The translations under genes and the position numbers were made by a program. From Heterotrichella gracilis (Eukaryota; Sar; Xanthophyceae; Tribonematales; Xanthonemataceae), in contig JAULBX010025830.1 of NCBI GenBank assembly GCA_032358255.1, forward strand, positions 1 to 64,000: DNA of 64,000 nucleotides. Reading direction: 5' to 3'. The stretch's first letter is position 1, and each line of letters starts with the position of its first letter. Under the pieces are notes generated by a model. It was not told the origin of the DNA, made no database searches, and saw nothing but the letters and a program-made list of their open reading frames with translations. Shown in pieces: positions 2,835-60,266 of the stretch.

Positions 2835-5800
2835 CTACAACCCCATCGCAACCTTCATGATCTGGTGCTTCACCGGCCCCGCCACATTCACCAGATCCAG
2901 CCCCAGGCTGCGCACCCCCGACAGAACCCCATCCTGCACATCAAACACCCGCTTGATGCCATCCATGGCGGCGATCATGGCCCCATTCATCACCCGCTGG
3001 GGCCGCTCATAGCGCTCCATCAACAGTCCAAGGTCACCGAAGTCCTGGCCGCTCTCCACTGCCTGCGCGATTACCCTCGCTAGGGTTGTGATGTCGCCCA
3101 GGCCCAGGTTGACGCCCTGACCTGCCAGTGGGTGTATGGCGTGGGCCGCGTCTCCAACCAGCGCCAGGCGGGGGCGCACGTACCTGTTGGGGGGCATAAT
3201 TCACCCTGAACATACAAACTCGGTACTTCTATTGCAAAGATGAATGAGATGAAAATGCCCTACACTAATGACTTTCTACCAGATAACGGTTCTCAAGGGA
3301 AGCGGGTTTACCATTCACTTTCCAATCTTGCTGCCAGTGAAATTGCATGAATGGAATTGCAAAACCTTGTTGAGACCTGTGCTGGAACCTCTATAAAGTA
3401 GGCATGATGCATCTATGTGTTGCCCTATGTCTTCTCAATGGTTCTTGGTAACAAATCCATTCATCACCAATACCATTGAGGAAAAGCAGGCAGCACATGG
3501 ACACAACATTCCTCCTTAACAAAGGCTCGAGCACAGGTCTCAACAAGGGTTTCAGCTAGGGTTTCCACCGCCGTGCATCCCCCCTGCCCGCCTACCTCCC
3601 CGCCACGTTGAGCCTGAGCGGGAAGGACTTTGGTGACGACCCCTGGTAGCCCAGCACCAGGGGGGGTTGCTCAAACTGGTCCGCAGAGGAGGTCAAGCTG
3701 GCCAGCAGGCCAGTGAGTGGCGCGCTGGGCGCCGGATCAGGCGTTGAGTCGAGCGCCTGGATGCAGCATTGAACGCGAGTCAGGCCACGCCCCGGCCCAA
3801 GTACCATAAGTAGGAGTGTAAAAATTATGTCATGCAAACACCACCACCATACACGCCCCGCCACTACACAGCACCCACGCCTGGTTGACCACAATTTGCA
3901 GAACCCCCAAAACTCTCCGTTCCAGCTCCATTACATGCACCTCCCTAGTGGACCACACAATGCGGCTACCCTTCTCACCGCTTTATTGAATAGCGCCACA
4001 TGCACACAGCCACCAGGTGGCAACCCAACCCCCACAGCACCCACACAGCACCACCCCACCCACCTGGTTCACCGCATCCGCAAACTTCCCCGGGCCCATC
4101 CCCTCCAGCTCCCTGGCATGCTCCTCGCTGGTTGACCACACGATGTTGCTCAGCCCCCCCCGCACAGGCAGCAGCGCCAGGGGCCCCGAGGGGAGGAACA
4201 CCTGCCAGGCGGTGGTGTTGGGGGTGGCGGTAGACACTGTGGCCACCACCCCCCGCTGGCTGTAGCTCCAGCCGGAGGTGTGGAGGTGGGCCAGCTGGCG
4301 CACCTGTGGGGGGTGGGGGGGATGGGGGCGGTGGCGGTAGTGGCGGCGGGTACATTGGCAGGTGGTGATGGTGGGGGTGGGGGTGTGCCGCAGACAGGGA
4401 GTAGGATCTGCATGTCTCTTCACAGCTGAGGCAGGCTAAGACCAGGGAGTGATTACAGCAAAAGAGGCTGGCTAAGGGGCTGAGATCCCATTGCAAATAC
4501 GCCACTTGACTCCTCGTTCTGGTTGCAAGTATGAGTGAGCTCGGGTTAGTTTGAATCCGGCTGCCACCTGGCATACCATAATGCACCCCGCTGCCACCTG
4601 GCGCACCTTTGACCTTGCCCCGTCAGCGCCTACGACCAGCCTGGAGTGGATTTCCCGGCCCCCTTCAAGCATCAGGCTGGCCAAGCCGGCGGTGGGGCCT
4701 GCAGGGTGGAAGTTGGGGCAAATGTGAATTGTTCATCGAGTGGCCATGAGCACAAATGGTCATAAACCCTCTAGGGATCTAGAGATCCTACACGGCCTCA
4801 CGTACTTGGGCCAGGTGTATGGTAAAGAATACACTAGCTGTTACACTTTCCTGACCTGAATGCACTCACAATCCAGCGCCGCGTGGCAGTGCATGGGTTG
4901 ACATGCTGCTCCAACACACCCCACTCCGCCACCCCATAGTATCAACCCATGCACGGCCACGGGCACGTGCATGCAAGTCATTGTGGGTGCATGTGTATGT
5001 GCATGGCATGAGTGTCTCATGGTGTGGAGGAGAACACGCCAGGTACATGCATGCAGAAGGCAGGGGTAGCTTTCTGCTCCGCGTACAATTCACCTGTGGT
5101 TGGCGCTGCAGCATGCGTGGGTAGGCGCAGACTCTCCGCACCAGCCTGCGTGCAAGGCCATGCGGTCAATTGGGCAGTCAAGGCAGGCATGCATATCAGC
5201 AGTGCAGCCAGATTACCAGCCACGCTCGGCACAGTCAGCGCTGCTCAGTTCTGTTATTTCTTGTACAAAGTAAACTGCAGTGCACTGATAACTGCATCGC
5301 ATCGCAGAACGTTTTGCACTCACCCCCCACAAGAACTCCCCCTTGCCCAGTCGCTCCTGCGCCTGGTGCATGAACGCAGACTGGATGAGGTGATTCTCGG
5401 CCACCACCCCCATCACCTCACGCCCCACTGCCGCCGCGTCAAAGCGCACACACCCCACCCCTCGGCTGTCCCACACCTGCATGGTGCGGAAGGGCCCGCT
5501 GTGGGGGGGCGCCACAAATCGCCACGCGCCTGTGGGGGGACGAGCAAATGGTTGGGTTACGATTGCGGGTGAGGAGGGATGGAGATGCGCATGTACTGGA
5601 ATCGGAATTTTGGTGGTGCAATATATGGGACAGAGAGGCGAGGTGTAGGCATGGAGGACCAGCTAATGTAATGGCGCCGCATGGCGTGGCTTGCGTGGCA
5701 TGGCATGGCATGGCTTGGCATGGCATAGTGCCTCCCTGTGTGGGTGTGTGCTGTCGGGGAGCAGCCAGCGCATATGCCAGTGTGCATGTTTTGTACTTTG

Positions 5801-8862: not shown

Positions 8863-9157
8863 GCAATTATTACAAGTTGTACAAGGACTGCTTGCTTTTT
8901 GAAGCTTGGCAATGAACCTGTGATCATCATGGTGTTCCATTCAGAAGCACTGAGCAATGAGCAATGTTACAGCTAAAGACTGCTTGCTTTCAATGGGGCC
9001 TGGCAACAAGAAACACCATGATTATATTAGTGACATCTGCATTCAAAAACCATTTTTTGGACACGAACCAGACCAGTTACCAGGTCTCAAGTGTTGTTAT
9101 CAAGTTGTGACATTCAAGTAAGCACCAAGCTGCTCCTTCCAATTCTCTGCAATAAAC

Positions 9158-11816: not shown

Positions 11817-14800
11817 ATGCGCACAGACAGGGTGGCCGTCATATTCTCCAGTCTATTAGCTTGCGTTTACGTTGCAGACAGGTAAGTGCCTGCCAGCCTG
11901 GGAACCGCTGCTCTGGTGGTGGTGGCATGTAGTACCTTGTGCAGCACTCAACCTGGCTTCCTTGCTGTGCGCAATTGCTGGGTTAGCACCACGTTTGCAT
12001 GTCCTGTCATTCCCTGGTATGGTCCGCACAAAGGGCCTTGCCAAGGTCCAGATAACTGCATGCGCTGGGGCCCTCCTGACTCCTTCTACTCACACAGGCT
12101 ATGGGCAACCCAGAGGGAGCTCGCTCGAACGGTACGCACCTGCTCTTGACCCCCAGCTCGTGCCCCAACCCAACTGCTTAAATCACAAGCCCACACCTGC
12201 CCTTGCGACAGCATTGTCCCCAGTGGCCCTGCCCTGCGCACTGTGCACCGAGGAGGATATTTTGAATATCTTATTTGGCTGTGGGTGCAGAAACTGGAGC
12301 TGGATGAGGCCTACCACAGCAGGCGGTTCCTCACGGAGGCCCAGCCCTCCACCACAGTGCCGTCAGCAACTAGCACACCCCCGCCACTGTAAGTACCCAC
12401 ACCCACGCCCACACCCACACTGTAGCACCCACCTTGTACTTGCGCCACACACTCGGGTCCCACACAACACCCACATGCGTGCCAGGACAAAGCATTGCTG
12501 GTTTGGTCAGAGGTGATTTCTCACCTAGGGTTATCTTTTGTGCGCCAGCGTTTTGTCACCTGCCGTGCCACCCTGCCACTCTGCTGGACATGGCGGGTCA
12601 GGCACTGCATGGCAATGCCCTGGGCCTCTCCTTTTGCTAAAGCAATGCGCCTGGCCAATCACAGCTCAAATTATATCATAATAATACTATAATGATATTA
12701 CATCCTGATTTTTGCTGCAGGCACGACAGCTCTGTCCTGTTTTACAGCATCCGGCCAGACAGCCACCCCGGGCCTCTCACAGGCCCCTCCCTGGACTCTG
12801 ACCCCCCTCCTATCCAGCTAGGCGATGGCTCCCTGGTGGGGCAAATCGACCGGATAGAGGATGGCAAGGTGTACGGCTGGGCCTGCCTGAAGGGCTTTGT
12901 GTCAAAACCATTGGAGGTGAGGGCCGGGGTGAGGGCGCCAAAACCCTAATTTGGTGTGCACGCATGAAAGCTGGCTGGGAGGATGAGCCATGGCAAGCTG
13001 GCTGGGAGGATGCGCCCTTGCCCGCCTCTCTGTACCAAAGCCTACACCCTGATTTCCAACCCCTTTCCCAACGGCACCCCAGCGCTATGCCAGCAATTCC
13101 ACAATGCTCATGCACGCACGTGCCCCTTGCCTCCCTCATGCTAAGAGTTATGCAGCGCCAGCCGCCAAATGCAGTGGATTGAAATCGCCCTTTTGAAACT
13201 CCCTCCTTGCAACAAGGGATGGCCCATGGCTACAGCATTTCAATGCAAATTGCGCCGCCGCTCCATGCAACCGGTATCCACCTGCATTGTTATCCGCCTC
13301 GCTGCAGTGGCTGACTCAAAACCCTAAACCCTAAACGCAGGTCCTGGTGTATGTGGATGGCGTGCGAGTGGCCGCTGTGGCCGCCAACCGCGCCACCCCC
13401 CACGATCAGATCCACCGGCTGTGTCAGCGGGACCTGGTGGTGGGAGGGGAGGGGGCTGCAGCAGGGGGGGTGGGCTTCGAGGCGGACATGCCTGCACTCA
13501 CGCAGGGCAAGCACCAGGTGGGTGGGGGGTGGGGATGGACGGGCGACGGTGTCAAAAGTGTGCTGTGAGGCAGACATGGTGCACAGGCCGCAAGTCATGA
13601 TACACAGCCGCATACCATGGGCATACCGCAGGGCACCTATGCCGATTGCTGGCGGGCATGTTTGAATGGGTTAGTGGTAGGGAGGTCCGCCTCAGAAGCC
13701 CATGTAGAATGGGATGGACATTTGCTGGCACACTGGCCACATATGTATCCCCCCCCCTCCCCACCGCCACCCCCAACCCCTTGCCCCTGCAGGTGCGCGC
13801 GTTTGCCAAGACCACAGACGGCGCCGCCAAGCAGGAGCTGAACCAGTCGCCGGTGGGGTTTGTGGAGAGCATCGCGCGCCCGGCATTCGAGGATGCGCTG
13901 CGCCGCAAGGATGAGATCATTCGCATCCGCAACGCGCAGGTGAGTGGAGTGTGCCTAGTCAAGTGTTTGCATGCACTCCAGCAAAACAGGCAGGAATGTG
14001 CAAACAATTCAATATTGAATCGGCTCAATTTAATTTCCTAGATTTCATTTGACTTATTGCTGTGAATATTTGGGGGATTTTACTTCAAGAATGTAAACTA
14101 ATTTATTGTACGAAAATACAACAAGAAAAATTTAGCAAGTATTGTTTTTTGGCGTATTGTTTAATATCCCTTCGGCACAGGTGTCTGCTCTGTGGGACGA
14201 GCTGCACACGCGCCAGCCCTGGCGCAACGCGCTTGACTCCGCAGTGCCCATCACCTTTGACCGGCCGGAGGAGAAGGCCAACGGGACAAAGCTGGTGGCG
14301 TTCCTGGGCATCAACACGGTGAGGGCAGCGGTTGGTTAGGGCTCAAGGGTGCTGGGGATCAGTGGATGCCTCCAACAGGTGGAATGCTTGACAGCTGTAG
14401 TTAGCAGGTGGCAGGCACTGGGACCAGGAAATTGCCCGTTGTCTTCGGTTGGCTGTTGGCTGCACTCCCCCGCCTGGTTTCGCTCCAGCACCAGGCGCAT
14501 GTCACCCGCGCCGCCCACGCGCGTTGCCCACCCGCCACGTGCACACCCACCACCGCAAATGTAGGTCCCGCATGTACCTTGCTCAGGACAGGTAAAATAC
14601 TGTCCACTGACGCACACGCCCTTCCCCGCAGGGCCTCGGTGCTCGCAAGCGCCGCGACATCCTGCGCCGCACCTGGGTCCCCACCGGCCAGGCACTGAAG
14701 GACCTGGAGGAGAAGCAGGGGGTGATGATACGCTTTGTGGTGGGGTACAGGTGAGGAGGAGCACCATGGTTTTGATGGTTTCAAGGGGATTCCTTCACCC

Positions 14801-16569
14801 CATACAACCCTACGGAATCACTCCCCGTTGCGCTTTGCCACTCATCTGCTGCAGTACGCAGAAGGACAACTCCCATCAACTAGTCAGCCTTACTCGGAAA
14901 GATGCAAAAACTAACCCATCTGGCGCAAAGTGAAGCACAGCCTTCCACCCCAGCTGGCAGCCTCACACACCACACCAAAGCCCTGACCCCAAAATCCTAA
15001 TCCTGACCCCAGCCCCAACCCCTCACCTCCGCAGCGAGCAGAAGGACGACCCCTACGAGGCGTCTGTCCAGGAGGAGATGAAGCAGTTCAACGACATCCT
15101 GCGCCTGGACCTTGTTGACACCTACGGGGACCTGTCAATGAAGACGCTCAAGCTGTTCACAACGCTGCCAAAAAAGGTGGGCAGATGTGCGCAGATAATC
15201 ACCGTTGATTTTATTTTAGATCAACATTGCAGTACACGCTACACCTTACAAATTACAATGTCTAGGCCCCGTTTTCTGTCTTTCTCATAATTGTAATACC
15301 CTGTCGCCAGGTGGACGCCGACTTTTACTTCAAGATCGACGATGACGTGGCGGTGAATGTGGATGCGCTGGGGGAGTACCTGGCGGCCAGGCGCACGCAG
15401 GGGAACCTGTACCTGGTGCGTGGGGTTTGTAGGTTGTGGGGTGGGGGTGGGTGAAGGGAGGGTGGGTGGGGGGAAGTCCCGGCGGCGGTGGGTCAGAGCA
15501 GGGGATTTTGTACCTGGTGGATGGTGGTGGGGGGTGGGAAGGAGGGGGTACGGCTTGGGCGGCTAGGCACCCGCTGGGGAGTTGAGTGCATTGTGGTTGG
15601 CAGGATTATCAGCATCGCAGTCAGCTGGCATCTGATCCATGTTCAGCTTGTGGTGTTGGATCTGGATGACACCTTGCATCTCAGCATCCAGTACCCGCCC
15701 CTACCTAGCTCCTCCCACCCCCGCCACCATTGACATGCTCTACAAATCACCTTGACAAGGCCTCCAACCATCTTACCCACCTCAACCTCCCACCCACTCA
15801 CTGCCGCCCGGCGCCACCCGCAGGGTTGCATGAAGTCCGGCCCGGTCCTCACCGACAAGCGCTACAAATGGTTTGAGCCGGAGTCGTGGCGATTCGGCGA
15901 CCCCGTGTGCGACAAGTGCTCCATCAACTACCCGCGGCATGCATCGGGCCAGCTGTACGGCCTGTCGGCCCCAGTGGCGCGCTACATCATGCAGAACCAG
16001 GCGGTGCTGCACAGGTGGGACCTTGCTGATAGGGGTTTAGGGTTTGGAGGTTTAGGGTTTACAAATTGTTGGCCCGAGTGCCGCGCTACATCATGCAGAA
16101 CCAGGCGGTGCTGCACAGGAGGGACCTGATTGGCGTACCCCACATGCAATTTGTTTCAACATGTTGCTGAACTATTGTCTTTACAGTGTCTAGATGACGC
16201 AGCCTGGACATTTACATACATGCTCGGGTTTGAAAGACAGGGCCGCATGGCATGATACTACTGTTGGTGGAAATATGCCTCCATGTCCTGGGAGTAATGT
16301 GGGTGGTGCTGCACAGGTTTGCCAACGAGGACGTGTCGCTGGGCACCTGGCTCATGTCCCTGGATGTGCAGCACGTGGATGAGAGGCGCCTGTGCTGCGA
16401 CAGCCAGGAGAAGTGCAGCGCGCAGAGTGGGGACAGCAACCTGTGCCTGGGCTTCTTCGAGCACCAGTGCGCGGGCATCTGCAGCAGCGAGCAGCGGCTG
16501 GAGCAGATCTGGCAGACGTGTTTGAACGACCCGCTGCACCGGAAGCGGGGGGCGGCAGGCGCGCGGTGA
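11817..16569 (+). CDS. GT31 beta-1,3-galactosyltransferase with extra N-terminal module
   Basis: Predicted type II Golgi glycosyltransferase close to plant hydroxyproline O-galactosyltransferases. Twelve exons (11817-11881, 12098-12131, 12291-12388, 12721-12916, 13341-13517, 13793-13939, 14181-14318, 14632-14750, 15035-15176, 15311-15415, 15824-16014, 16317-16569) join in phase to 554 residues. Residues 5-20 (RVAVIFSSLLACVYVA) form a signal anchor. Residues about 85-220 are a module with GQIDRIEDGKVYGWACLKG, PLEVLVYVDGVRVAAV and GKHQVRAFA, which I do not know from plant GT31 enzymes. The catalytic part has VAFLGINTGLGARKRRDILR, RTWVPTG, FYFKIDDDVAVNVDAL (DxD-type metal motif), YPRHASGQLYGLS and NEDVSLGTWL. 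The C terminus is cysteine-rich (LCCDSQEKC, EHQCAGIC). Acceptor specificity cannot be read from sequence. Introns 8 and 11 contain copies of adjoining exon edges. Confidence 0.93.
12969..13011 (+). repeat. 26-bp tandem duplication in GT31 intron 4
   Basis: AGCTGGCTGGGAGGATG occurs at 12969-12985 and again at 12995-13011. It lies just inside the intron, with no link to an exon edge that I can see. Confidence 0.75.
13318..13336 (+). repeat. Telomere-type repeat abutting the GT31 exon 5 acceptor
   Basis: AAACCCTAAACCCTAAACG is followed directly by CAG and exon 5. The telomere-type run therefore replaces the usual pyrimidine tract next to the acceptor. Confidence 0.8.
14847..14882 (+). repeat. 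Decayed copy of the GT31 exon 9 start, in intron 8
   Basis: TGCAG, then a few bases, then CGCAGAAGGACAACTCC matches the real exon 9 start (GCAGCGAGCAGAAGGACGAC at 15031). The copy includes an acceptor-like CAG. Confidence 0.65.
16075..16119 (+). repeat. Copy of the GT31 exon 11 3' end, in intron 11
   Basis: About 37 bases beginning GCGCTACATCATGCAGAACC repeat the real exon 11 end (15979-16015) without change. The donor is altered: the true site reads CACAG|GTGGGA and the copy reads CACAG|GAGGGA. A third echo, GTGGTGCTGCACAG, forms the acceptor of exon 12 at 16303-16316. A telomere-type run (16032-16061) lies between the first two. Confidence 0.9.
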
Positions 16570-17023: not shown

Positions 17024-17028
17024 TGTAA
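17024..17028 (+). terminator. Candidate TGTAA poly(A) signal for GT31
   Basis: TGTAA, 455 bases after the stop codon of the galactosyltransferase gene. Confidence 0.3.
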
Positions 17029-42054: not shown

Positions 42055-45000
42055 ATGGGTTGGGCTCGGTGGTGTGAGGCAGGCGCTGAGTGTGCAGCCC
42101 TTGTGCAGGGGTTGGCGTTTGCGCTGCTGTGCGCTGCCCTGCTCGGCCACACATGCCTGTGCACGACAGACAGCAGCGATGCGGAGCAGCTCTATCAGGA
42201 GGCGCTCCAAATACGGTAAGAACCGCCTCCACACAAGCCAAGTCCAACAACCACGAAGGGTTTTTGCCACCTACTGCAACGTCATCCACCCTTCGCCCAA
42301 CAAGCGAGTCAGATGCCAGCGCTTGCGCACTCAAGCTGGCGGCCTTGCTCCTCAGTACCCTAAACCCAATCCCTAATAAAGAATAATCAGCTGCCGCAGT
42401 CAGATGCCAGCACCTGCCAGCTCAACCCCTAAACCCCATCCGTAATCCCTTAAATTGTCACCTGTTGCAGAAGCAAGTCAGATGCAAGCACGCGCGAGCT
42501 CAAACTGGCAGCCTTGCTCCTCCAATATTTAAACCCTAATAAAACCCTTAAAATTCCACCGATTGCAGGAGCAAGTCAGATGCAAGCACCCGCGACCTCA
42601 AGCTGGCAGCCTCGCTCCTCAAAACCGCGGCAGGGGTGAACGTGACCCTGCGTGCGCCCCCCGACGCACCCGCCACTCACACAGCCACCACTGATCAGCC
42701 CTATTTGCTTGTGTCTGAGCCCACGCACCTGGGCGCTCTCAAGGAGCTTGCCGCAGCCTACACCAGGGGCGAGGGGGTGGTGCAGAGCGCAGCCATCGCG
42801 CACCAGCTCACACACAAGGCTGCGGAGCTGGGTGACGCCGACGCACAGGCGCAGGTGAGGGTCAGTTATGAATAGTATGTTACTTCGCCCCCTGTATTAG
42901 TACTTAAAGTGGAAATATATGGATTTAAATTAGTACTGAGATTTTGCACTAAATTAATTGTGGGTAGAATGATGATTGTGGGTTGAATGAGCCATACCCT
43001 ACCTGTGTATTTAAATGGTTACATGCTGCCGTAATGCATGCCAGATGAACATGCACGTTACTTCTGCCGATGCTTGAACCATCCCCCACATGCTCCATGC
43101 TCAAACCCGCGCCTAGTCAGCCCATGCATGTGGCACAGCTTGCATTCCACCTGCCCTTCAGCACTCTCACGCTGCATCAGCGGAAAATCTCCGCCCCCCC
43201 TATACCTTATTTGTATATCTTAGCAGGCCTGACGTTGGCTTCGTCTTAACCAAAGCACCTATTTAAAGACAGAAATGCGTCCTTCTTTACTTTTATTTTG
43301 CATGTCACCCACGCCAGCCCATGCACGCCCCGCAGGTCGCGTTCCACCTGTCCTTCGGCACCCTCCCGCTGCACCAGCGCAAGGCCTCCGACCCCCCCTA
43401 CGTCTTCACGGAGCCCGACGTGGCCTCCGCGCTGCTGCACTACTACTTTGCGGCGGCGGGCAACAGCACCTTTGCGCGCATGGCCATGGGGTACAGGCAC
43501 TTCCAGGGCCTGGGGGTGCCCAAGAGCTGCCAGGCGGCGGTGCTGTACTACCAGCCGGTGGCGGAGGAGGTGGTGGCGGCGGCCACCAGGCCCGGGACGC
43601 TGCCGCTGGTGCGAGGGAAACCCTGAAACCCTAGACACGCTGTAAAAAAATCGGTGGGGGGATGGGGGCAAAACGGAGCACTGTTGGCATCACCCCTTGC
43701 TGCGACAATGCAAACACTGTGGGCGGCGTTGCATCGGCGCCATTCTCCACACTCCTGCCCCCCTCTTGCACCCGCATTGCTCTGCATACCAAGAGGCTCC
43801 CACACGCCGCGCCGAAATGGAAAACGAGCATTAAAAGTACCTACTTTCAAAAATATGCAAATAAATTTTTCACACCGAATCGGTTTTCTAACAATTTGTT
43901 CCACGATTGTTTTGAAAAGGATCTACGCCCAACCCTGCAAGGTGGCCCTGTGCATTGTCGACCCTACAGCATGTTCACCACCATTCAAACTCTCAAAGCG
44001 GGCCAACACCCACCCCCACAGGTTGAGCGCGTGCGCCTGAGCCTGCGCACCTTCAACTCCAAGAAGACCAGTAAGGAGTCTGAGCTGCTGCACTTCCAGT
44101 GGCTGGCGGACATGGGCAACGCAGACGCGCAGAGGAGGATAGGCCACATGTACGCCTCGGGCATCATCAAGCAGCCCGACCAGGCGCTCAAGTACTTCCT
44201 GTGAGTGGGGTGGGGTGGGGGGGTGGGGTTGGGGGTGAACTGGGTAAGCGGGCACATGATTGCATCAGGCATGGTCAGGCAGCCGGACCAGGGCTTTCAA
44301 GTAAGGTTTTTGGGGTGGGGTGGGGGAGGTGGGGGGGGAGTTGTGGGCACGCATACACATGCCCGTGCACTTTCATGCACACAAGGGCACACGCAGGGCA
44401 CCAGGACACACGCTGCAGCACACACCCATTACCACACGTAACTTTCTGGCACCGCACAGCATCCATGCATACACCCCTGTTCTCACCACCACTCATCACC
44501 TCCACCCCGCAGCAAAGCAGCAGAGGGCGGGGATGTCGATGCCATGTCCCACCTGGGCCACATGTACGCAAATGGAGCGGGGGTGGCGCCCAGCAATGAG
44601 ACAGCGCTCGAGTATTTCCAGGCTGCTGCCCGGAAGGGCCATGCCAGTGCGCTCTACGGTCTTGGATACATGTACATGGCAGGGTATGGCGTGCCCAAGG
44701 ACTATGCAAAGGCGCTCAAGTACCTGCAGGTGTGTGGGGTTGGACCTGGATCCTTTGTTTTGCATCGGGTATAGATGAGGCGTTGGAACCTGCACACTTC
44801 ATCAGGCTAGGTAGGGCCACGCCAGTGCGCTGTACGTGGGACACATGCATATGGTGGGTGAAGGCGGGCCCAGGGACTATGCCAAGGCGCTCAAGTACTT
44901 GGACGTGAGGGGTAGTGTTTTTGTATTGAAACCTGGTGCTGGGACAAAACATTGACAAGGATTTGGGAGTTAGGTTGGGCACAAGACGTTGCGACACCAG

Positions 45001-47655
45001 GAAAGCGCTGCGTGGTGCTGCTTGCTTACACAGGTGGAGGTTTCAAACCTTGTGGCCTGTGCTGCGCAGGATGCGGGTGACAAGGGCAGCATTGATGCAT
45101 GGTTCTACCTGGGCCTCATGCACCTCAAGGGCTGGGGGGTGAAGAAGCAACAGGGGCAGGTAAGGGGGGTAGGCTTAGACCTTGAGATAAAAGGGCCTCC
45201 TAGTTGATGCAAACTCTCCCAACGATCATCTTGTAGATTCACTAGGAAGGAACCGACTAGGAACCCATACCCCGTGCCATGAGGATGCTCAACCTGGCAG
45301 CAGGACAGGGCTACCCACTGACCGTGTACCACCACATGTCGCCATGCACCACAGCCACACCCCAACCCAGCTCAACCCCGCCCCAACCCTATTCCATAAA
45401 CCGCACACCCTTCCAGGCAATGAAGATGTTCAATTTGGCCTCCGAGCTGGGCCATCCGCTTGCCATGTACAACCTGGCCATGATGTACCTGGGTGCCGCG
45501 GGGGTGTCTGACCGCCAGTCCTGCACCAAGGCGCTGCAGCTGATGAAGAAAGCAGCGGAGGCGGGGCCATGGGCTGCCCTGCTGCAGGAGGGGTACGAGA
45601 AGCTGCTGGCGGGGGATGCGCAGGTATGTGTGGGTGGGGATGGGGAGGAGCTGGGAATGCGTACGTGGGGTGTGTGTGGGGGGGGGGGGTGGGTGGGTGG
45701 GTGGTTGGGCAGCTGCTGAAGCAGGCGGCAGGGGTGGGTACAGGGATGGGTGACAAGCTGCTGGCAGGAGATGCGCAGGTGTAACTGAACGGGGAATACT
45801 GCGCGCACAGCGGTGCTTGTCTGTGTGCACCTAAGCGGTTGCTCGTATTCAGTGCTGAGTGCATGTCATCGCTTGCCTGGATTTAAACTGTTTTCTTACC
45901 CATCTTCCTTCCCCAGGCCGCCCTCCTGAGCTACCTGCGCATGGCTGAGCTGGGCAGCGAGCTGGCGCAGAGCAACGCAGGCTGGATGCTGGCACACGTG
46001 AGTCAGGCAGGGGTTGGGATGGACTGGGGGGTCAGGTCATGTAATATACAAGACCGATTGTAGATGACAGACAAATCCAAGCATTCCAGCAATGCAGCTG
46101 ATCAGCGATTAGCCGTGTGCACAAGTTTGCGCCACTCGGCTCTGTCCTGGCATTGCTTGTACCGTTCTGAATGTGTTTGCTCCAGGTGTTGTAATGAGGA
46201 CAATTAAATTGTAGATCTAAGGCAAAAATGAACCATACGATTGAAACCCGTTGTCAGAACTGTAGTCACAATCCCCGTTAACCAGGTAAAATTACACATG
46301 AAGCACGCCAATTAAATTCATGATGTCATTTGCAATCACTGTAATTTTGATCAACTATTCACGCCCTGCAGGGTTACGGCTACCGCGGCCCGTGCGCAGC
46401 CGACGTGGCCTTTGTGCTCTACCAGCGGGCAGCCGAGCAGGGCAACGTTGAGGCGCTGCTGCTGCTGGGGGACGCGCACTGGTACGGCAGGGCGGTGCCA
46501 CAGGATTGGGGCCGAGCAGCCGAGGTGTATGGGCAGGCCAGCAGGCGGGGCAACGCGCAGGCCACCTTCAACCTGGGGTACATGTACCAGTATGGGGCGG
46601 GGCTGCCTAAGGTGTGTGAGGGGGGATGAAGGGAGGGTTGTTGCCTTATGATTGGGGATTCTGTTGTAGGCGACGAGGGAAGCGGAGTGGGCTGGGGCTC
46701 GCCTTTGGTGGTTTTGGGATGCGCCAGACCAGTGAGAGGGATAAGCCACAGGCGGCCTTTAACTCTTGGGTAAAAGGACCAGTACGGGTGTGTGCTGGCA
46801 AAGGTGTGGGTGGGTGGGTGGGGGCGGATGGGGTGCAAGGTCGGTTGACAGGAGTCTTGTTTTGGAAAGCAAGTTTTGAAATCCTTTCTGCAGGACCTGC
46901 ACCTGGCTAAGCGGCATTATGACAAGGCTGTCCAGACGCAGCCTGACTCGTGGGTGGCTGTGCGGGTGGCGCTGGTGCTGCTGCGGGTGCATGCGTTGTG
47001 GGAGGGGCTGTCCCCACACGTGCCCAAGGGGGTGGTTTGGCTGGTTGGGGGATGGTTTGAGGCGCAGGAGAGGGGGGGAGGTGAGGCGCTGAGAGGGGTA
47101 GGGGGGTTGCATGTTGGGTTGTTGATAAAGATCCAGAGGACACCTGCTCCTTTTGGCTAAATTGGTTTGCCCGTGCTACCCCTTCCACTGCAAAATGAGG
47201 TTTCCAGGTCCTTCTGTATTGCACTCTCCACCTCATGCCCTTGTCCCCACCTGTACAAACCTGAACCCAAAACCCCTTCCCAACCCCCACCCGCAGCCAC
47301 GCAAGCCACCCTGTCAGGCAACCCAGAAGACGCCGGGCCCTTTGGCCTGGGGTGGTTTGGGCGATTCCTGGACATCGGGAACTGGGTGGACTGGGATTGG
47401 CTGGACAAGCTGGCGGACATGTCAGACAAGACCGACTACCTCATCATCATCGCAATGTGCGGCATGCTGTGGATGGTGCTGTACCAGCGGCGGAGGCTGC
47501 GGGGGGGCGTGGAGGGGGTGGTGGGTGGGGGTGGGGGTGGGGAGGGAGCGGGGGTTGCGGAGGGGCGGGGAGGGCAGGGGGAGGGGGAGGGGCCCCATGG
47601 TGGTGCGAGGGGTGGGGGTGATGTGGCGCCTCAAGAACCGGACGCACAGGGCTGA
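42055..47655 (+). CDS. SEL1L / HRD3-type ERAD adaptor with SEL1 repeats
   Basis: Partner of the HRD1 ubiquitin ligase in ER-associated degradation; the repeats sit in the ER lumen and recruit misfolded clients. Eleven exons (42055-42215, 42569-42854, 43336-43608, 44022-44200, 44513-44729, 45070-45159, 45417-45623, 45917-45997, 46372-46611, 46894-47080, 47297-47655) join in phase to 759 residues. A signal peptide is visible (ALVQGLAFALLCAALLGHTC). SEL1 repeats follow, e.g. ADAQRRIGHMYASGIIKQPD, DAMSHLGHMYANGAGVAPSN, SALYGLGYMYMAGYGVPKDY, DAWFYLGLMHLKGWGVKKQ and QATFNLGYMYQYGAGLPKD. Near the C terminus come WFGRFLDIGNWVDWDWLDK and one membrane helix, YLIIIAMCGMLWMVLY, then a Gly-rich tail. An in-frame upstream Met at 42025 would add ten residues. 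At least six introns carry copies of exon edges. TGTAA at 47883 and 47893 are candidate poly(A) signals. Confidence 0.92.
42290..42524 (+). repeat. Three extra copies of the SEL1L exon 2 start, in intron 1
   Basis: Units at 42290-42353, 42391-42430 and 42461-42524 repeat the real exon 2 start (42556-42625). All share AGTCAGATGCMAGC; two also share CAAGCTGGC/CAAACTGGC then AGCCTTGCTCCTC-like sequence. The third keeps a TTGCAG acceptor and is the closest to the real exon. CCCTAA-type bits separate the units. Confidence 0.9.
43117..43207 (+). repeat. Diverged copy of the SEL1L exon 3 start, in intron 2
   Basis: About 90 bases at roughly three-quarters identity to 43315-43403. The real exon reads VAFHLSFGTLPLHQRK and the copy LAFHLPFSTLTLHQRK, with an acceptor-like GGCACAG just before it. 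Its open frame continues for about 15 more codons. Confidence 0.85.
44268..44330 (+). repeat. Copy of the SEL1L exon 4 end and donor, in intron 4
   Basis: Repeats GCAT..TCA.GCAGCC.GACCAGG and the G-rich intron start of the real site (44160-44220). In the copy the region after TCAAGTA reads AGGTTTTTGGGGTGGGG. Confidence 0.8.
44811..44912 (+). repeat. Copy of the SEL1L exon 5 end and donor, in intron 5
   Basis: About 100 bases repeat the real exon 5 end (44634-44735), sharing GCCAGTGCGCT, ACATGCATATGG-like sequence, GGGACTATGCCAAGGCGCTC and a GTGAGG donor-like end. The repeat frame is broken by small indels, so it does not extend the SEL1 domain. Confidence 0.85.
45270..45344 (+). repeat. Copy of the SEL1L exon 7 start, in intron 6
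   Basis: ATGAGGATGCTCAACCTGGC aligns with ATGAAGATGTTCAATTTGGC of exon 7 (45420 onward), and similarity continues through the GGGCTACCCACTGACCGTGT segment. No working AG acceptor precedes it in the right phase. Confidence 0.75.
45729..45785 (+). repeat. Copy of the SEL1L exon 7 end and donor, in intron 7
   Basis: ACAAGCTGCTGGCAGGAGAT then GCGCAGGTGTAACTG repeats GAGAAGCTGCTGGCGGGGGA then TGCGCAGGTATGTG of the real site (45599-45630). Confidence 0.85.
46731..46795 (+). repeat. Eroded copy of SEL1L exon 9 sequence, in intron 9
   Basis: CAGGCGGCCTTTAACTCTTG then GGTA..AGGACCAGTACGGG resembles CAGGCCACCTTCAACCTGGG then GTACATGTACCAGTATGGG of exon 9 (46558-46600). This is the weakest example in the gene. 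Confidence 0.55.
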
Positions 47656-53300: not shown

Positions 53301-56300
53301 ATGTAGGCGTCACTACACCATTAGGCAACATGTGTAGGCATCACCACACCCACGAATGTAGCCACCCTAGGACCCCCCTGGATACCCACTTGGCAGCACG
53401 GCGGTCATGAGCGACTCGAGCACAGGGATTGCGCTGAAGTCGATGTACAGGTTGCTGGAGATGATGCCCTGGATGGCCCCCACGGGGATCAAGAAGAACA
53501 GCGTGAGCAGTATGAAGAGGGCGGTGATGATCAGCTTGCGCACGCTGCGCTCCCACTGCCGCATCCTGCGTGACGGGAAAGGGGGGTGAGGTGACTGCTG
53601 CAGCAAGGCCAAATTGTGCACAAGGATAGTATTGTGAACTTGCTGCTCAATATGTTGTCCTGGAGCGCCCCTACAGGGATCAGGAGGAGAAGTGTGCACT
53701 ATGAAGAGAGGGGTGATGATCAGTTGGCGCACGCTGCCCTGCTACTGCCGCATGCCGCGTGATGAAACAGGAAGTGAGGTAATTGCAAGTGTGCTGAGTC
53801 AGTCACCACTGCAATCATGTCATGGCAGCAGTGTAAGCAATGGGCTTCCTCTGTGGGGGTCATCGCAACAGTGTTCAACAAGCTTACGTTACGCGGAAGC
53901 AAGGGAACTGCTACTCTGGCTGTGCTTAGTACAGCGCTAACAACAGTGTGGGTATGGTGCCGCCACGTACAAGGTGGTATACCCTTGAGTCTACAGATGG
54001 CGGCGGGGAGGAGGAGGATGTGGCACCAATTCAACACCATCCTACTACCTGACACAAAATCTGTAGACTGAAGAGCATACCACCTTCTAAGTGGCGGCAC
54101 CATACCCACACCGTTCTAGCACACGCTTGTGCAAGGGCATTGCTACTCTGCCTGGATGTTGTACAGGGTTGGAATCCTTTTACACAATACGAAGTACCAT
54201 ACCCTAGCATTGGCCACAGCACGTCCAGCACGGAACCTGACAAGGGTTTTCCAGTTTTATCAGCTTACCCTAGCATTGGCCACAGCACGTCCAGCAAGGA
54301 ACCTGACAAGGGTTTTCCAGTATTATCAGCTTACCCTAGCATTGGCCACAGCACGTCCTTGGGCGCAGGCGCAGGCTGGGTCTGCCATGCTGACCGGTCG
54401 TGGCTCATGAGGGCAGTGGAGGCAATTGCCTGGGCGGTGCGTGTCCTGGTAAAACAAAGGGGACACAAAGACTTATATATGGTTGATCCATTTAATTTGA
54501 CATTCCGGATTGAGTGAGGGTTTCTTAGTGTATACCGCACGTGCTAGAATAATGCCACATTATCCTGGTCCTGGGTGAGTATGCATACAATGTGGACGCG
54601 GTTCATTAGGGCCATCGGTTGAGGAGATGCCCTGGGTTGTACAAGCAGCTGGTTGGGGGGGATAAAAAAAAGGAAATCAACTCAAATTATAAAAGAGTCG
54701 CTTAGCGTAGCCTATATGACCATGCCTATGGTGTGCAACCTAATGCTGGATGGCAATTTATGCCGGAAGGGCAAACCAACCCCGTTCCCTGCTGAAACGC
54801 ATGCAAACAGAGAGCAGAAACATTGAGGTACCGGAATAAGTTTGGTTCACCTTTGTCGAGCTCACAATTCAACTACTTCTGGTACCTCACTTGCTGCTCT
54901 CCATATGCAATGCAGTTCAGCAGCAAATGGGGTTGTTTTGCCCTTTCTGCACACTCCCTTCCAGCATTAGGTTGCAAACCATGGCCTATACGGTATACGC
55001 ATTATTGCAATTAGCGAAATTTGTCGCCAAAAGCCACATCTGATGTAGGTTTTCACAGGGCCAACGGTACAGACACAGAGTAAGCCCTCCTGCCTACCGC
55101 ATCGCCTCCCACAACCTAGGGTTTTAGTTCAGGGTTCAGAAGGGTTCTTATACGAGAACGACACAAAAACAAAGGGAAAGTCCTTCTGCCTTGCCTCCTG
55201 CTGCTGCTAGGGTTTTAGTGCAGGGTTCAGACGGGTTTCACAACGAGGCCGTCACAAACGCAGAGAAGAAGTCCTTCTGCCGGCCGCACCTCCTCTCTGC
55301 TAGGGTTTTGGTGCAGGGTTCAGTAGGGTTTCACATACGAAAACGTCACAAATGCAGAGGGGAAATCCTTCTGCCTGGCCGCCTGCTGCTGCTCCCCCAT
55401 CAGCCGGTGCAGCTCGCCCAGTCGGGCGGTCAAAAACTCCAGGGAATCCACCTTGCGCGGGGTTTTGCCATAGCGATCCAGGCCCCAGCGGCCATAGCGC
55501 ATGCCGATCACACGGGTCTGTGGTGCAGGGGGTAGCTCAGGATTCAAAGTCAAGGTCGAGTATTAAGGTGCACAACTATTTGCACAATTGCATTGTAAGT
55601 TTTACATTAAGTTTTTACTTTTAAAAACCAGCTGCCACTCAGCAAGTGCACACACACTGAAGCCAGAAAGTGATCGCCCATATGTAAGGCATTACTGAAC
55701 CGGGTCTAATATGCCCAGACCACGCTCATTGTCTTTACTTCATTACCCACACACCACCTCCATAAATCATATCTAAATGCTTACACCACGCCCAACCTGC
55801 TGCCGTAAGGCATTACTGAACCGGGTCTAATATGCCCAGACCACGCTCATTGCCTTTACTTCATTACCCACACACCACCTCCATAAACCATATCTAAATG
55901 CTTACACCACGCCCCACCTGCTGCCTCTTGATTGGCTTCCCCTTCTGCTTGAGTGATGCATACTCGTCCAGCAGGTCCATCAGGCTCCGCAGCACTGAAT
56001 GGTACTCCTGGTAGCTGCCGTCAAGGTCTGAGGTGTTGTGCGCAATGTGCACCGCGGATATGGCATGGGGCCCATACACGTCTGTGAACTCATGCTGCAC
56101 CATCTGTGTGGGAGCGGGAACTATTCATTGACACATGCACGAGTAGACTGAAAAGAGAACAAGCATGTATAACACCTTTTTCAATACTGGGAATTGAGAT
56201 CAAGCGCCATATATTTAGCACCACATGCCATGTGCACCCTCCAAGAATGTATAAATTGTACAGGGAGTGGGGGCCATACACATCTGAAAACTCATTGTGC

Positions 56301-59300
56301 AGCATCTGCTGCGGCCTGTGCATCCCTGAGCATCCCTACCTCCTGAGCGCTCATCCCCTGGGCCATCATCTCATCCGCCTGCTCCCACACATCAAAGTTC
56401 TCCTGTTGCCCCCGGCCGCCACCTGGCACCAGGCCCCTCCCCTCGCTCCCCCTCCCATTGCCCTCCTCAACATCAGCTATCTCGGGATCTCCAGAGCTGC
56501 GCGGTAGGGATTTGTCACTCTCAGGGAGGGAGTTCGGGGTGAGGGCAGGCTGGGTGGCAGTGTTGCCCTTGCGAGTCCTGTGGGGGTGGGGGTGCGGGGT
56601 GAGACAATGGAGAGGTGGGGTGGAGCAACGCAGCGGAATATGAAGGCCAAGATTGCGTGTGTGAGTGCATGCATTGATAATCTGCAGCATTGGTTGATGA
56701 TCTGCAGGATTATGGTACACCGCTGTGTGATGCAAGGGTTTAAAGAAATGGGCAACGTACACCACATACAAACCGCACACACTCCCCCCCTTGCCCCTTT
56801 TTCCTCACTTTCTCTCCTCCTCCTCCCCAGGCGCCGTCCTCCGACCGCCCCCCTTGGACTGCGCAGACTTCCCCGGCCCCTTCACCCCCGCCTTGATGCG
56901 GTCCTTGGCGAACTTTGGCAAAAAGCGCAGCGCAGTGGAGTCCAGCCTCTCTGAGGGGGTGCCATAATCCACCCCAGGGATGTCAGTGACCAGCACAGTG
57001 TGCGAGGGCCCGCCATGGGGGCGGGTGGTGAGGTACTGGATGCGCAGCTGCACGGCGCCCTCGTAGGCGCGCCACACCATCTGCGGGGGGTTCAAATAGG
57101 GCGATTGTTGGGTGGATGGGTTACTGGCTATTGCGCTGCGGTGGGTGTGCATACTGTTTGCGGATGGGTGGATTGAGGGGTTGAATAGGGTTGGTAGGGT
57201 ATTTTGCAGGGCGGTGAGGAACTGGCTGCGCAGCTAATCTGTGCTTCAATAGGCGCACCACAAGATGTGCATTGCAGGGGTCTTTACGGGCAGGGCAGGG
57301 TATTTGCAGGTGGTGGTGGTGGTGAACAACTGAGCAGCAATGGGGTAGCCGCTATCCAAATGGGGTTTGGTAGGGTGCAGACAAGGATGATGAACACTGC
57401 ATATCTTATTGAGGCAATTAATGAGCAACGTGCGCGCATCAGGACAACACTATTGATCGATGCATGTGCAACCTTGTGGCCACGCCCATTACAGCAAGAT
57501 ATTGAGACACATATGTGTTGCCACCTTTTCTAGGCTTTAGGGTTTAGGGTGACACTGCATGTGAATATCCACGCAATGACCTGCACTCACCACGTAGAGC
57601 AGTATGCTGATGATCCACGTGACTGCCATGTGGGCGTACATGCGGGGGCTCCGGGCAGCGATGTTGGCCATGGTGGTCTGCACAACAAGGGGCAGGGGAA
57701 GGTGAATAGATTAAGAACAAACACATATTAACTTTTCGGGATGATCTCAACCACGCATTGCCCCATTCGAGTCGAATTATTATGCGTTTTTTGGCATTAA
57801 ATTTTCCAGATGTTAAGTTGAGGCTCTCCAGCCCACATCCACGACAGCTCAGGCTCCGGACCCAAAAACCTGCTTCCTAACCCCATGAGCCTATATATGG
57901 CACACCAAAATCATAAGCTCCTTTCATTTCCAATGGTGGCCTGAGAGAGAAGACAGCTGGTATCCATCGTCAGACAATCATGCTTGCTCATGCACTGCTG
58001 TAGGCGGAGCATCCCTATGCGCAGGAAGCTGAGCTGTTGCTTAGGAGAAGTTTGGGCTTGTACCCCTGCCTGCTGCCCACACAGCGGGGTAGGGGAACAG
58101 ATCCAAACCTGTTCCTAAGTAACGGCACACCTTCTTGCACATAGGGGTGCTCTGCCTCGACGGCTGCATCAAAAACCATGGTCCGACTACGGGGGTCTTG
58201 TCTACTAGGCTGGCTCTCTGGATTTACTTCACTCACCAAAGCCTTTGTATCCAAGACGAGGCATGTTTATGAACGCATGCAATGCATTATTTGAATACCT
58301 CTTGCCTGTGTATTTTCCTCTTAAAATACCATGCTGCAAGCCAAACATACCAGTCTAACATATATTTCTTGTCCGTTATTTGTCTATTTCATTTTCCTTG
58401 TTTATGATTTTCCCCCTTGAGTCGCATGCTGCACGGCCCACTGGGACCATGTCACTGTACCGGTTGTGACTGTCACTGGTCTGAAAGCCCATGCACATAG
58501 CTGCAGTCGTAGAGCGCCAATTGAGCTGCTAATGAGGTAAATCATAAGATCAGATCATATTGTACGTCTGGGACTACAACATGACTGGTCACAGGTCTAC
58601 AAACTTCCCGAAGCGCATCCCCATACCCCCTTAGCCACCACCACATGCAACCCACCTTGTCTAGGTTACTGAACTGATAGTCGCTGGCCTGGTAGTCTGG
58701 GTCATACCGCCAGCCATACAGCGAGTACGAGGAGCCAAGGGTCTGCTCTGGCTGGGGCAGTGGGGGGACCTCAGGCTTGTACTGCCACCACACCAGCCCA
58801 GGGGGGGCATCGGGGGTGGGCGCGTAGAATTCGGGGGCCTGCAGGGATGGGGGGTTCAGCTCAGGTGCAGGGTGGGGACAAAAATCAAAATAAAGTATAC
58901 AAAATAAACAAAGTAAATGAGTAACAGCTAAAAATAAACAAAACAAAAATAACACAATACCATGCATTGACAATAGTACACATGAAGCGCCTTGTCTCAA
59001 GGTGGCGCACTGACCTTTGTGAACTGTGGTGGCGACTTGGATGGCGTTCCCCCGGGCGAGGTAGGTGCGGGGGGTGGTATCCAGTAGGTGAAGGGGGATG
59101 GCTCTGTGCCACTGGTCAGCTTGGACACCTCCCCACCCTGCAAATAAATAAACAAATAAATAAATATATATCTACCCTCCTCGTCTCACGAATGAGGGCG
59201 TTGGTTGAGGAAGAGACACTCCCCATCCTGCATACATGCCCCGTGCCACTCGAATGTAACATTGTGCAGCATTACAAGATGACATTGGCATCATCCATGG

Positions 59301-60266
59301 AGGGAGGTGCATAGCTATAGCGCTGGCGCAAAGCTGGGCTTGAGGCACAACGAGAGCAGTTGCAAGGCAGGGGCAATGCGCAATCTTGTAGCCCCCAACC
59401 CCTTGCACTATCTAGTGCCTCTCGGCTAGAGTTCCCATGTCTGGTACAACCAGCTCTTCAGCCAATGTCAGCATGCATGCAATCGGTGCAAACACACACA
59501 GCTGTGAAATGCATCACTGGCTGACAGCCAAGCCATGGTTGCATATCGGCGGGTGCACAAGTCAAATTCGTTGGCAGACACACCAGAGGCAGGTAAGTTG
59601 TAGGATACATGATCAGTATCCCTTCACAACAGGCTGGAAAAAAACCCAAAGGGCTTAAGTGATGCAGCACGCATCCTATGACCAAAATGAACAACGTGGT
59701 GCTATGGCCTTGGCTTTAGGGTTTAGGGGTTAGGGTGCGCTTGTATGAGGCACGGGACAGGGTGGTAGGGGCAGGATTTGTGCGGATTGCTCACCGTTGC
59801 ATTGATTGGCAGGATGATAGCACCACAGATGAAGGTCAGCGCCAGAGCAAGCGTGAACCCTGCATTTGGGGTGGGTGGTGTCAGGGCGGCATGCGGCCAT
59901 GTCAAAATTCCATGTTGACCAGAGGTGTGGGTATTTGAAGTTCAATTACACAGGGCAGTGTTTGTAGCATGGAATTTCCACAGTGTATGACTTACCAAAC
60001 CACAGGATGCGGAGGTACATAGCCGAATCATAGCCAGCGAGGGAAATAATATCTGACTCTGTCTGTTTAGAAGCTGCTGGTATCCAGCCTCCAATACTCG
60101 TGGGTACTGGCGTGGGCTTGTGCTTGGATTTGCGCTGCCCTTTGGGGTTGTAAAAGAGCTTTGTGGTGGGCAGACGGAGCAGAATGGCTAGAATGAGAAA
60201 GGCTATCGCACCCACCAGCGCATTGAGCCCAATGGCGATGCCAAAGGACTTGCCGCTCGTGGCCAT
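50344..60266 (-). CDS. OSCA/CSC1-type mechanosensitive cation channel
   Basis: Calcium-permeable channel gated by osmotic or mechanical stress (DUF221, TMEM63 relatives). Sixteen exons in minus order: 60266-59996, 59859-59795, 59137-59015, 58838-58656, 57677-57591, 57080-56809, 56577-56340, 56103-55918, 55517-55339, 54445-54335, 53565-53390, 53067-52943, 52051-51902, 51704-51411, 51094-50864, 50535-50344. All phases close to give 960 residues, somewhat longer than plant OSCAs (about 710-800). TM0 is GLNALVGAIAFLILAILLRL, followed by LALALTFICGAIILPINAT and MYAHMAVTWIISILLYV. The cytosolic region has HTVLVTDIPGVDYGTPSERL and AFVTFSTRTAQAIASTALMS. The pore domain has LFFLIPVGAIQGIISSNLY, LALRIFLLVLPSILTLMTRV, TAVFFMTYLILQ and LICPCAVLYFGVRLIISKYQ. 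The extra length lies in a low-complexity insert near residues 330-410. The C terminus is acidic. Many introns hold tandem copies of exon edges. Confidence 0.95.
53640..53772 (-). repeat. Copy of OSCA exon 11, in intron 10
   Basis: About 130 bases repeat the exon 11 start and middle (53449-53578): shared GGTGATGATCAG, TGGCGCACGCTGC/TTGCGCACGCTGC, ACTGCCGCAT and CGTGATGAAACAGG versus CGTGACGGGAAAGG. Identity is roughly 75-80 percent with indels. Confidence 0.85.
54201..54350 (-). repeat. 66-bp tandem repeat across the OSCA exon 10 donor
   Basis: Units begin at 54201, 54267 and 54333, each starting ACCCTAGCATTGGCCACAGC then ACGTCC. The third overlaps the real end of exon 10 and its donor (GTAAGC at 54334-54329). 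The two intronic units each keep a GTAAG or GTATG donor-like site at the equivalent place and differ from each other at about two positions. Confidence 0.95.
55055..55375 (-). repeat. Serial copies of the OSCA exon 9 end and donor, in intron 9
   Basis: The real exon 9 end and donor lie near 55330-55380. Copies with falling similarity lie near 55250-55310, 55140-55215 and 55060-55115. The nearer ones share TCCTTCTGCC, CACAAACGCAGAG-like sequence, and GGGTTCAG plus GGGTTTCACA next to it. Spacing is about 70-115 bases. Confidence 0.85.
55684..55925 (-). repeat. 121-bp near-perfect direct repeat across the OSCA exon 8 donor
   Basis: Two adjacent copies start GTAAGGCATTACTGAACCGG at 55684 and 55805 and differ at only about three positions. 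The right-hand copy ends in the real exon 8 end and donor (CCCCACCTGCTGCC); the left-hand copy ends CCCAACCTGCTGCC, which removes the GT of the donor. Confidence 0.95.
56262..56300 (-). repeat. Copy of the OSCA exon 8 start, in intron 7
   Basis: GGGGGCCATACACATCTGAA then AACTCATTGTGCAGCATCTG matches GGGGCCCATACACGTCTGTG then AACTCATGCTGCACCATCTG at the real exon start (56067-56106). Confidence 0.85.
57208..57285 (-). repeat. Copy of the OSCA exon 6 start, in intron 5
   Basis: GCGGTGAGGAACTGGCTGCG then CAGCT, followed by TAGGCGCACCACAAGATGTG, matches GTGGTGAGGTACTGGATGCG then CAGCT and TAGGCGCGCCACACCATCTG at the real exon (57024-57085). Confidence 0.85.
57531..57550 (-). repeat. Telomere-type repeat in OSCA intron 5
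   Basis: TAGGCTTTAGGGTTTAGGGT lies about 40 bases from the exon 5 donor. A similar run (59714-59737) lies in intron 2. Confidence 0.8.

Follow-up and report, generated by a model that had tools for sequence, protein, structure and literature searches.

Introns of the xanthophyte alga Heterotrichella gracilis carry partial copies, here called ghosts, of the edges of the exons that they adjoin. This pattern was followed from a 64,000-nucleotide stretch (bases 1-64000 of contig JAULBX010025830.1, hereafter C332, in assembly GCA_032358255.1; "the window" below is this whole stretch) to C332 up to base 241000 and to eight 10-kb stretches from six other contigs (C875, C79, C13, C309, C640, and C47) of a genome of 68.5 Mb in 903 contigs. 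The ghosts are a real observation: on C332 the duplications and their direct orientation are plain, their concentration at exon borders exceeds both chance and a modeled filter of selection plus decay, part of the pairs enclose filler with telomere repeats, and the ghosts decay as non-coding sequence. The best explanation would be that staggered breaks arise again and again at exon borders and that their repair makes short direct duplications and so lengthens introns, and we put the chances of this explanation just short of even.

Copies of exon edges in their own introns

Genes were modeled with a semi-Markov gene finder that was seeded on SEL1L exons and trained on C332. The models of this contig contain 32 genes and 539 exons, with medians of about 272 bases for introns and about 126 bases for internal exons, and the splice signals are clear (donor AG/GTRNG and acceptor YTGCAG/G, a consensus taken from an earlier gene finder, with the slash at the junction). 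All models are ab initio and were made without RNA support; some ghosts are labeled as exons in them (a few as small exons on C332), some gene ends are wrong, and the models on the 10-kb stretches are cut at both ends.

In the edge test, the terminal 50 bases at either end of an exon were compared with the exon's own intron, and a score of at least 20 was taken as a match; gene models scoring under 20, exons shorter than 50 bases, and introns outside the range 120-1500 bases were left out. On C332, 69 of 662 edges matched their own intron, donors and acceptors alike (34/328 and 35/334), in agreement with a preliminary description of the window. That description had proposed unrelated introns as the comparison, and length-matched foreign introns gave a single match in 2648 (0/1312 donor, 1/1336 acceptor). 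The reverse complement of the own intron was matched by one of the 662 edges (1/328 donor, 0/334 acceptor). About 15% of the introns in this test (65 of 435) held at least one ghost. At 50-100 bases from the edge, exon pieces matched the own intron in 11/512 cases, and those deeper than 100 bases did so in 2/581; intron middles matched their own intron in 10/435 cases and foreign introns in 0/1740.

A gapped self-comparison of 261 kb yielded 97 pairs on the same strand at distances under 500 bp; there were 12 opposite-strand pairs in the same range, and each of these was a single self-palindrome. On C332, 68 of 90 pairs spanned a predicted splice junction, compared with 49.3 (S.D. 5.1) after circular shifts, none of 500 of which reached 68. 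At positions 172126-172679 of this contig, one exon edge is present in about five copies, several of them near a 124-bp spacing, with pairs 79-98% alike.

In the window, exon edges were compared with their own introns by best local alignment, and a ghost was called at a score of at least 17. This gave 20 ghosts among 235 edges (one in COQ6, three in GT31, one in Rh, four in AGPase, five in SEL1L, five in OSCA, and one in an ankyrin gene). Among comparisons with foreign introns, which were drawn at random and not length-matched, 8 of 1371 reached 17 and one reached 20; under the strict edge test, 14 of 165 window edges pass. Two more SEL1L ghosts were taken for exons by the gene finder (44810-44912, found with BLAST, and one at about 45751, seen by eye), and one further copy lies in Rh, so that the earlier count of more than twenty cases holds. 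The ghosts with their coordinates are as follows.

3872..3958, minus strand: COQ6 intron ghost of donor edge 4057-4141, 77% over 83 aligned bases
14468..14544, plus strand: GT31 intron, weak ghost of acceptor edge 14624-14695, 77%, score 18
15450..15524, plus strand: GT31 intron ghost of donor edge 15352-15423, 76%, score 27
16067..16126, plus strand: GT31 intron ghost of donor edge 15963-16022, 93% over 60 bases; 43 bp of telomere-like filler lie between the two, with the donor GT of the ghost changed to GA
19822..19905, minus strand: Rh/ammonium-transporter intron ghost of donor edge 19953-20031, 80%
21269..21316, minus strand: Rh copy of exon edge 21459-21506, 190 bp off, 81% over 48 bases; the edge is one that the gene model read as a stop (21451)
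34565..34591, plus strand: AGPase intron ghost of acceptor edge 34671-34697, 89% over 27 bases
35094..35125, plus strand: AGPase intron ghost of acceptor edge 35290-35321, 88% over 32 bases
36369..36406, plus strand: AGPase intron ghost of donor edge 36272-36309, 86% over 37 bases
37031..37086, plus strand: AGPase intron ghost of acceptor edge 37229-37284, 198 bp off, 95% over 56 bases; the protein of this exon aligns to 1yp2
42465..42525, plus strand: SEL1L intron ghost of acceptor edge 42563-42623, 90%; three copies in all, the further one at 42303-42359
43136..43202, plus strand: SEL1L intron ghost of acceptor edge 43333-43400, 82%
44250..44303, plus strand: SEL1L intron ghost of donor edge 44142-44194, 77%
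44810..44912, plus strand: SEL1L ghost of donor edge 44632-44737, modeled as an exon, 78% over 106 columns
45276..45346, plus strand: SEL1L intron ghost of acceptor edge 45417-45482, 73%
46725..46808, plus strand: SEL1L intron ghost of donor edge 46534-46616, 71% over 83 bases
53677..53762, minus strand: OSCA intron ghost of acceptor edge 53486-53573, 83% over 86 bases
54261..54292, minus strand: OSCA intron ghost of donor edge 54327-54358, 100% over 32 bases; within a 66-bp tandem array at 54200-54358 (TRF: 2.4 copies, 97%)
55142..55208, minus strand: OSCA intron ghost of donor edge 55327-55393, 82%; within a three-copy 91-bp array at 55116-55393 (TRF: 3.0 copies)
56268..56314, minus strand: OSCA intron ghost of acceptor edge 56066-56111, 83%
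57209..57270, minus strand: OSCA intron ghost of acceptor edge 57023-57084, 77%
63643..63712, plus strand: ankyrin-gene intron, possible ghost of acceptor edge 63893-63964, 80%, score 23

The ankyrin-gene match may reflect protein repeats instead of a ghost. Seven genes had been named as carriers in the preliminary description, and six of these (COQ6, GT31, Rh, AGPase, SEL1L, and OSCA) do carry ghosts; in the seventh, the TPRA1-like gene, all scores were 11 or less. The COQ6 case had been called one "in miniature," a term that 83 aligned bases at 77% do not fit. LSm8, fumarate reductase, acyltransferase, and coiled-coil genes, in which no copies had been seen, all stayed under the threshold (highest score 14), and the unevenness among genes that had been noted lies within chance (p 0.067 by permutation, for 22 genes with at least eight edges).

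Gene names are those of the preliminary description, and Pfam matches agree in kind with most of them: FAD_binding_3 (COQ6-like), Tmemb_40 (TPRA1-like), Galactosyl_T (GT31), Ammonium_transp, Sel1, RSN1_7TM (OSCA-like), LSM, and FAD_binding_2 (fumarate-reductase-like), with MBOAT_2 slightly under its cut-off. The AGPase model is supported by alignment to the solved AGPase small subunit 1yp2, which we take to be that of potato. The AGPase protein scores highest with a long protein of Cocos nucifera (60% identity), and the next named matches are green algal: Asterochloris (75%; presumably the organism behind the label Astpho2), Trebouxia (73%), Coccomyxa (71%), and Myrmecia (71%). By this one protein the source of the DNA would resemble a trebouxiophycean green alga. 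In Rh, positions 9-75 of the Ammonium_transp profile fall in the model with the stop at 21451 and positions 105-381 in the next model; because the rest of the protein follows there, this stop is doubtful and is probably a missed donor.

Several other features of the sequence were recorded. A (CCACCG)n array occupies 21124-21246, and similar stretches account for nearly all 65 genome matches of this region. Long imperfect palindromes, mostly intronic, lie at 3361-3552, 52426-52682, 53942-54115, 54728-54982, and 57964-58192; they are 174-257 bp long and 70-77% self-complementary, and none matched another in the self-comparison. Neither a tRNA nor an Rfam match that reached the gathering score was found in the window. 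Elsewhere on C332, at about 116216-125111 and 177358-179526, a stretch the size of a gene is present several times, with diverged sequence and in both orientations. The introns of this contig are G-rich at the start (35% G in the first tenth) and C-rich at the end (34% C in the last tenth). CpG is depleted (observed/expected 0.50 in introns and 0.62 in exons), which hints at cytosine methylation; no tie to the duplications was found.

Decay, spacing, and filler of the copies

In these pairs the modeled reading frame runs through the outer copy, on the exon side, and the inner copy is the ghost; no shift of an intron was seen. Identity between exon and ghost ranges from 67% up to 98-100%, which bears out the earlier proposal of a continuing local direct duplication at exon borders whose products decay. 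In 67 ghost-exon pairs, differences at codon positions 1, 2, and 3 number 147/1162, 119/1167, and 227/1173 (0.127, 0.102, and 0.194, respectively), as would be expected of a ghost that is free to change next to an exon under constraint. The ghosts are non-coding because 29 of 31 indels in these pairs are not multiples of 3 and break the frame. If ghosts were functional alternative or poison exons under selection, it would be in keeping that the splice dinucleotide is retained in 17/23 donor and 17/22 acceptor ghosts, but with the frame so regularly shifted and first- and second-position differences so common, we judge such a function very improbable.

An artifact of draft assembly might be suspected in a genome of 903 contigs. 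We regard it as extremely unlikely, since the copies diverge by degrees through independent substitutions and indels, are often parted by unrelated filler, and recur on other contigs.

The distances and lengths of copies were analyzed in 79 of 80 pairs, values under 50 or over 400 having been dropped. Duplicated pieces are mostly 30-130 bp long. The distances between copies in 68 pairs fall into two groups, with 32 at 66-112 bp, 22 at 178-212 bp, 11 between these, and 3 above, and the preferred spacings are about 95 and about 190 bp. The word "tandem" in the preliminary description applies to the 22 of these 68 pairs that abut or overlap (spacer of 10 bp or less) and not to the other 46, which are separated by more than 10 bp.

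That description had also suggested that the process could create, lengthen, or shift introns. The introns with ghosts are longer than the others (median 312 versus 255), as lengthening predicts, although longer introns also give more room for a match. Creation of an intron would make its length equal to the copy distance, which is so in just 2 of 80 pairs, and one of these ends on a doubtful 21-nt predicted exon. The earlier interpretation is thus supported in part, and de novo intron creation is not supported.

In pairs with filler, exon and ghost can be about 84-95% identical although the adjoining intron sequences are little alike. In 25 younger pairs, identity by block averages 0.88 for the first bases of the exon; in the next three blocks of ten bases, going into the intron, it is 0.72, 0.65, and 0.59, and it is about 0.51-0.58 deeper in, where the control, taken from the whole pair set, is about 0.52; the step is overstated in that these pairs were picked on their exon part. 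The flank of the ghost is closer to the real intron side in 52 of 67 pairs and to the adjacent exon in 11. The source of the copy was therefore the gene or its pre-mRNA, and spliced mRNA as a source is rejected.

A local origin of most fillers is disfavored. When fillers of at least 40 bp were compared with the surrounding 1.5 kb, 29 of 35 had no match above all controls, and the other 6 exceeded all 40 controls, some of them narrowly. Among 31 fillers of at least 45 bp, no family was evident (best filler-filler score 22), and inverted ends exceeded the 95% control in 0/31. In the 261-kb self-comparison, few matches lie beyond 20 kb, and these are largely duplicated genes and telomere-like tracts.

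These results bear on introners, which part of a published account describes as families of similar introns that spread between genes, some with target duplications of 3-9 bp (PMC9860276). An introner-like element inserted at exon edges with long target-site duplications would make the filler the element itself. The frequency of filler-separated pairs at 178-212 bp is compatible with such an element, and the same account has many introners favoring nucleosome linkers. The H. gracilis copies resemble introners in this possible link to linkers and in rapid intron change, which that account extends to algae. Unlike introners as portrayed there, the copies are local, the duplications of 30-130 bp are far above 3-9 bp, and plain tandem cases have no filler at all. 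A filler family with terminal inverted repeats was rejected from the 31 fillers and the 261 kb compared, and we consider an element of this kind hardly credible.

A recognizable component of the introns is telomeric sequence. Among seven-base words, those most in excess in introns are telomeric (AACCCTA, 193 occurrences compared with 7.8 in dinucleotide shuffles), and TTTAGGG-type repeats occur throughout C332 introns and are nearly absent from exons. On C332, AACCCTA/TAGGGTT is found 2.1 times per kb in introns, 0.16 in exons, and 0.61 between genes, and one or more telomere heptamers occur in 36% of introns. Genome-wide, a 24-base exact telomere repeat has 429 matches (overlapping ones in one array counted apart). 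Measured from contig starts, with far ends left out, the distance is in the thousands of bases for most of the listed places; one on C70 looks like a true end.

Telomere repeats are also associated with ghosts. At least three telomere hexamers are present in 68% of 69 ghost introns compared with 37% of 429 others. In an analysis of the spacers between copies that kept 72 of 79 pairs, 20 of 50 spacers had at least three hexamers, with 6.1 expected from other introns and 12.0 from ghost introns; the remaining 30 had fewer than three.

Exon borders against a neutral background

A simple account of these observations is survivorship: random tandem duplication would occur everywhere, copies within exons would be purged, copies within introns would decay twice as fast, and those spanning an edge would remain. 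Several observations are in its favor. Exon copies are constrained, as the excess of third-position differences indicates, and would stay visible longer; 22 of 68 pairs are plain tandem; and intron-internal copies do exist, in 10/435 middles on C332 and, elsewhere, in 6/147 middles compared with 10/193 edges.

To examine the copies independently of the gene models, a gene-blind scan was made with ungapped 36-base windows at 80% identity or more and shifts of 60-320, after removal of low complexity. On C332 it returned 78 loci, of which 74 touch an exon, 2 have both copies within exons, and 2 are intron-only; random shifts gave 26.0 (S.D. 4.6) loci not touching an exon. At 90% identity, a level at which decay counts for less, an exon is touched by 39 of 45 loci; 2 others are exon-only and 4 intron-only, with 16.8 (S.D. 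3.3) expected at random. When only the longest pair of each locus was used, 74 of 78 touched an exon (exon-only loci included), compared with 48.9 (S.D. 4.4). The midpoint of the duplicated piece is at a median of 15 bases inside the exon.

Survivorship was simulated with even duplications that were purged in exons, an exon copy under constraint, and a doubled rate of decay for intron copies. Several settings of length, age, and indel rate were run (rates and lengths being assumed). In the simulated detected loci, 54-68% were intron-only. The observed shares, with exon-only loci excluded, were 2/76 and, at 90% identity, 4/43. Survivorship alone fails on C332 because the simulated intron-only share is far above the observed one, and the difference between edges (69/662) and middles (10/435) on this contig also speaks against it. 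We therefore consider this account improbable.

The splice motif in DNA does not by itself account for the edge focus either. Used splice sites had copies in 86/696 cases, whereas unused motifs of equal strength had them in 18/707 (12/427 in introns and 6/280 in exons) and random intron points in 3/357; this comparison left out sites under the 30th percentile of used sites and the 103 of 530 unused intron sites that lay in ghost footprints. The motif alone as the recognized signal is thus disfavored. On C332, neither motif nor neutral background suffices, and the exon border matters.

The excess at used sites is what would be expected if damage were coupled to transcription or splicing, with polymerase pausing or RNA:DNA hybrids nicking the borders and repair duplicating the edge, possibly from a nascent pre-mRNA template; splice sites would then in effect be read by the machinery of mutation. 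That the copies are direct and in cis, and that donors and acceptors are affected alike, is also consistent with such coupling. On the other side, exon-linked chromatin would look the same, and copies at 4 of 18 predicted stop ends would, if real, point to exons and not to splicing. Coupled damage is in our view a serious candidate, if a rather unlikely one.

The phenomenon is present off C332. In the eight 10-kb stretches, matches to the own intron were found for 10 of 193 edges, compared with 0/735 for foreign introns and 0/193 for the reverse complement. The gene-blind scan found 17 loci there: 15 touch an exon (3 of these via a secondary pair only), 1 is exon-only, and 1 is intron-only. 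With any pair counted, 16 of 17 touch an exon (exon-only included), compared with 10.8 (S.D. 1.9) at random and a maximum of 15 in 300 shifts.

Proposed staggered-break repair and related systems

Direct orientation, copies mostly of 30-130 bp, the occurrence of both tandem and filler forms, and filler of telomeric or unrelated sequence are what staggered-break repair would leave. In the mechanism that we propose, staggered breaks or paired nicks would arise around an exon edge. Fill-in of the overhangs would then duplicate the edge, and the ends would be joined either directly, giving a tandem copy, or with capture of telomere repeats or apparently unrelated sequence as filler. The outer copy would go on splicing and the inner copy and filler would become intron; since the duplicated piece includes the splice site, such an event would be nearly neutral as the intron grows. 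The inner copy would finally decay as a ghost. Net insertion would favor about 95 or about 190 bp, which would fit half and one nucleosome repeat as the repeat length is generally given. Candidates for what makes exon borders prone to breakage may include a paused polymerase, RNA:DNA hybrids, an exon-positioned nucleosome, and other exon-linked damage.

The following observations weigh against repair focused on exon borders. Six of the 10 matching intron middles on C332 are in introns without an edge ghost. On the other contigs, intron middles match their own intron at a rate near that of edges (6/147), with 2 of these 6 in introns where an edge is strongly matched as well, and with the longest pair only, 13 of 17 loci touch an exon, compared with 9.6 (S.D. 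2.0) at random, so that the edge focus is firmly shown on C332 only. Copies are also found at 1 of 13 predicted starts and, like those at stop ends, would if real tie the process to exons and not to splicing; predicted coding ends are unreliable, and at least one of the stop ends with copies is probably a mis-modeled donor (21451). The hexamer total in spacers is barely above that of ghost introns (p 0.055), and the telomere repeats have no clean orientation relative to the copies, which weighs against simple telomerase extension of one end because that would give one. Inspection by eye showed no break motif, and no terminal structure was found.

The intron middles duplicated within their intron on other contigs, with no strong edge copy, are at L029:743-908, L029:7136-7313, L032:2016-2716, and L033:9421-9809.

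The closest known case is a single potato gene. As far as the account drawn on here goes, a duplication across an intron-exon boundary of the potato RdRp gene made a new intron (PMC4974935). The H. gracilis copies are like it in that a tandem duplication crosses an intron-exon boundary and the splice signals are inherited from it; unlike it, they involve many genes, existing introns appear mostly to be lengthened, and filler is frequent. In the AGGT model, as outlined, an exonic AGGT is duplicated and the intron equals one unit. Local direct duplication absorbed by splicing is common to both, but the equality of intron length and copy distance that the model implies is the rare case here.

For telomeric filler, the nearest parallel is in the horse, where part of the published description reports telomere-repeat insertions with a direct duplication, ascribed to staggered breaks, at 3 of 66 loci (PMC7215372). 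Short internal telomere repeats, sometimes with direct duplication or random added sequence, are shared with H. gracilis; in contrast to the plain duplication at 3/66 horse loci in that description, duplication here is concentrated at exon borders, and many pairs have no telomere repeats.

Break repair in plants, by way of paired nicks and patch-mediated breaks, gives short direct duplications with or without filler; we know of no focus of these on exon borders. No report of a genome-wide exon-edge effect was found in the literature searched, which was open-access and has most subscription journals outside it. The new element in the present observations is the targeting of exon borders.

In its widest form, the proposal is that a mutational process recognizes exon borders, proceeds in steps of about half and one nucleosome repeat, is coupled to transcription, splicing, or nucleosomes, is patched with telomere repeats, and feeds intron growth genome-wide. 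We put this forward tentatively, as a possibility that we think more apt to fail than to hold. How introns grow is an old question with few cases caught in the act, and here events of many ages are found in one genome, at a rate of roughly one exon edge in ten on C332 with a nearly empty foreign-intron control. The telomere repeats in introns provide a second handle on the repair pathway at work. If exon borders are indeed mutational hotspots, gene structure would shape mutation, and intron growth would be measurable in strains.

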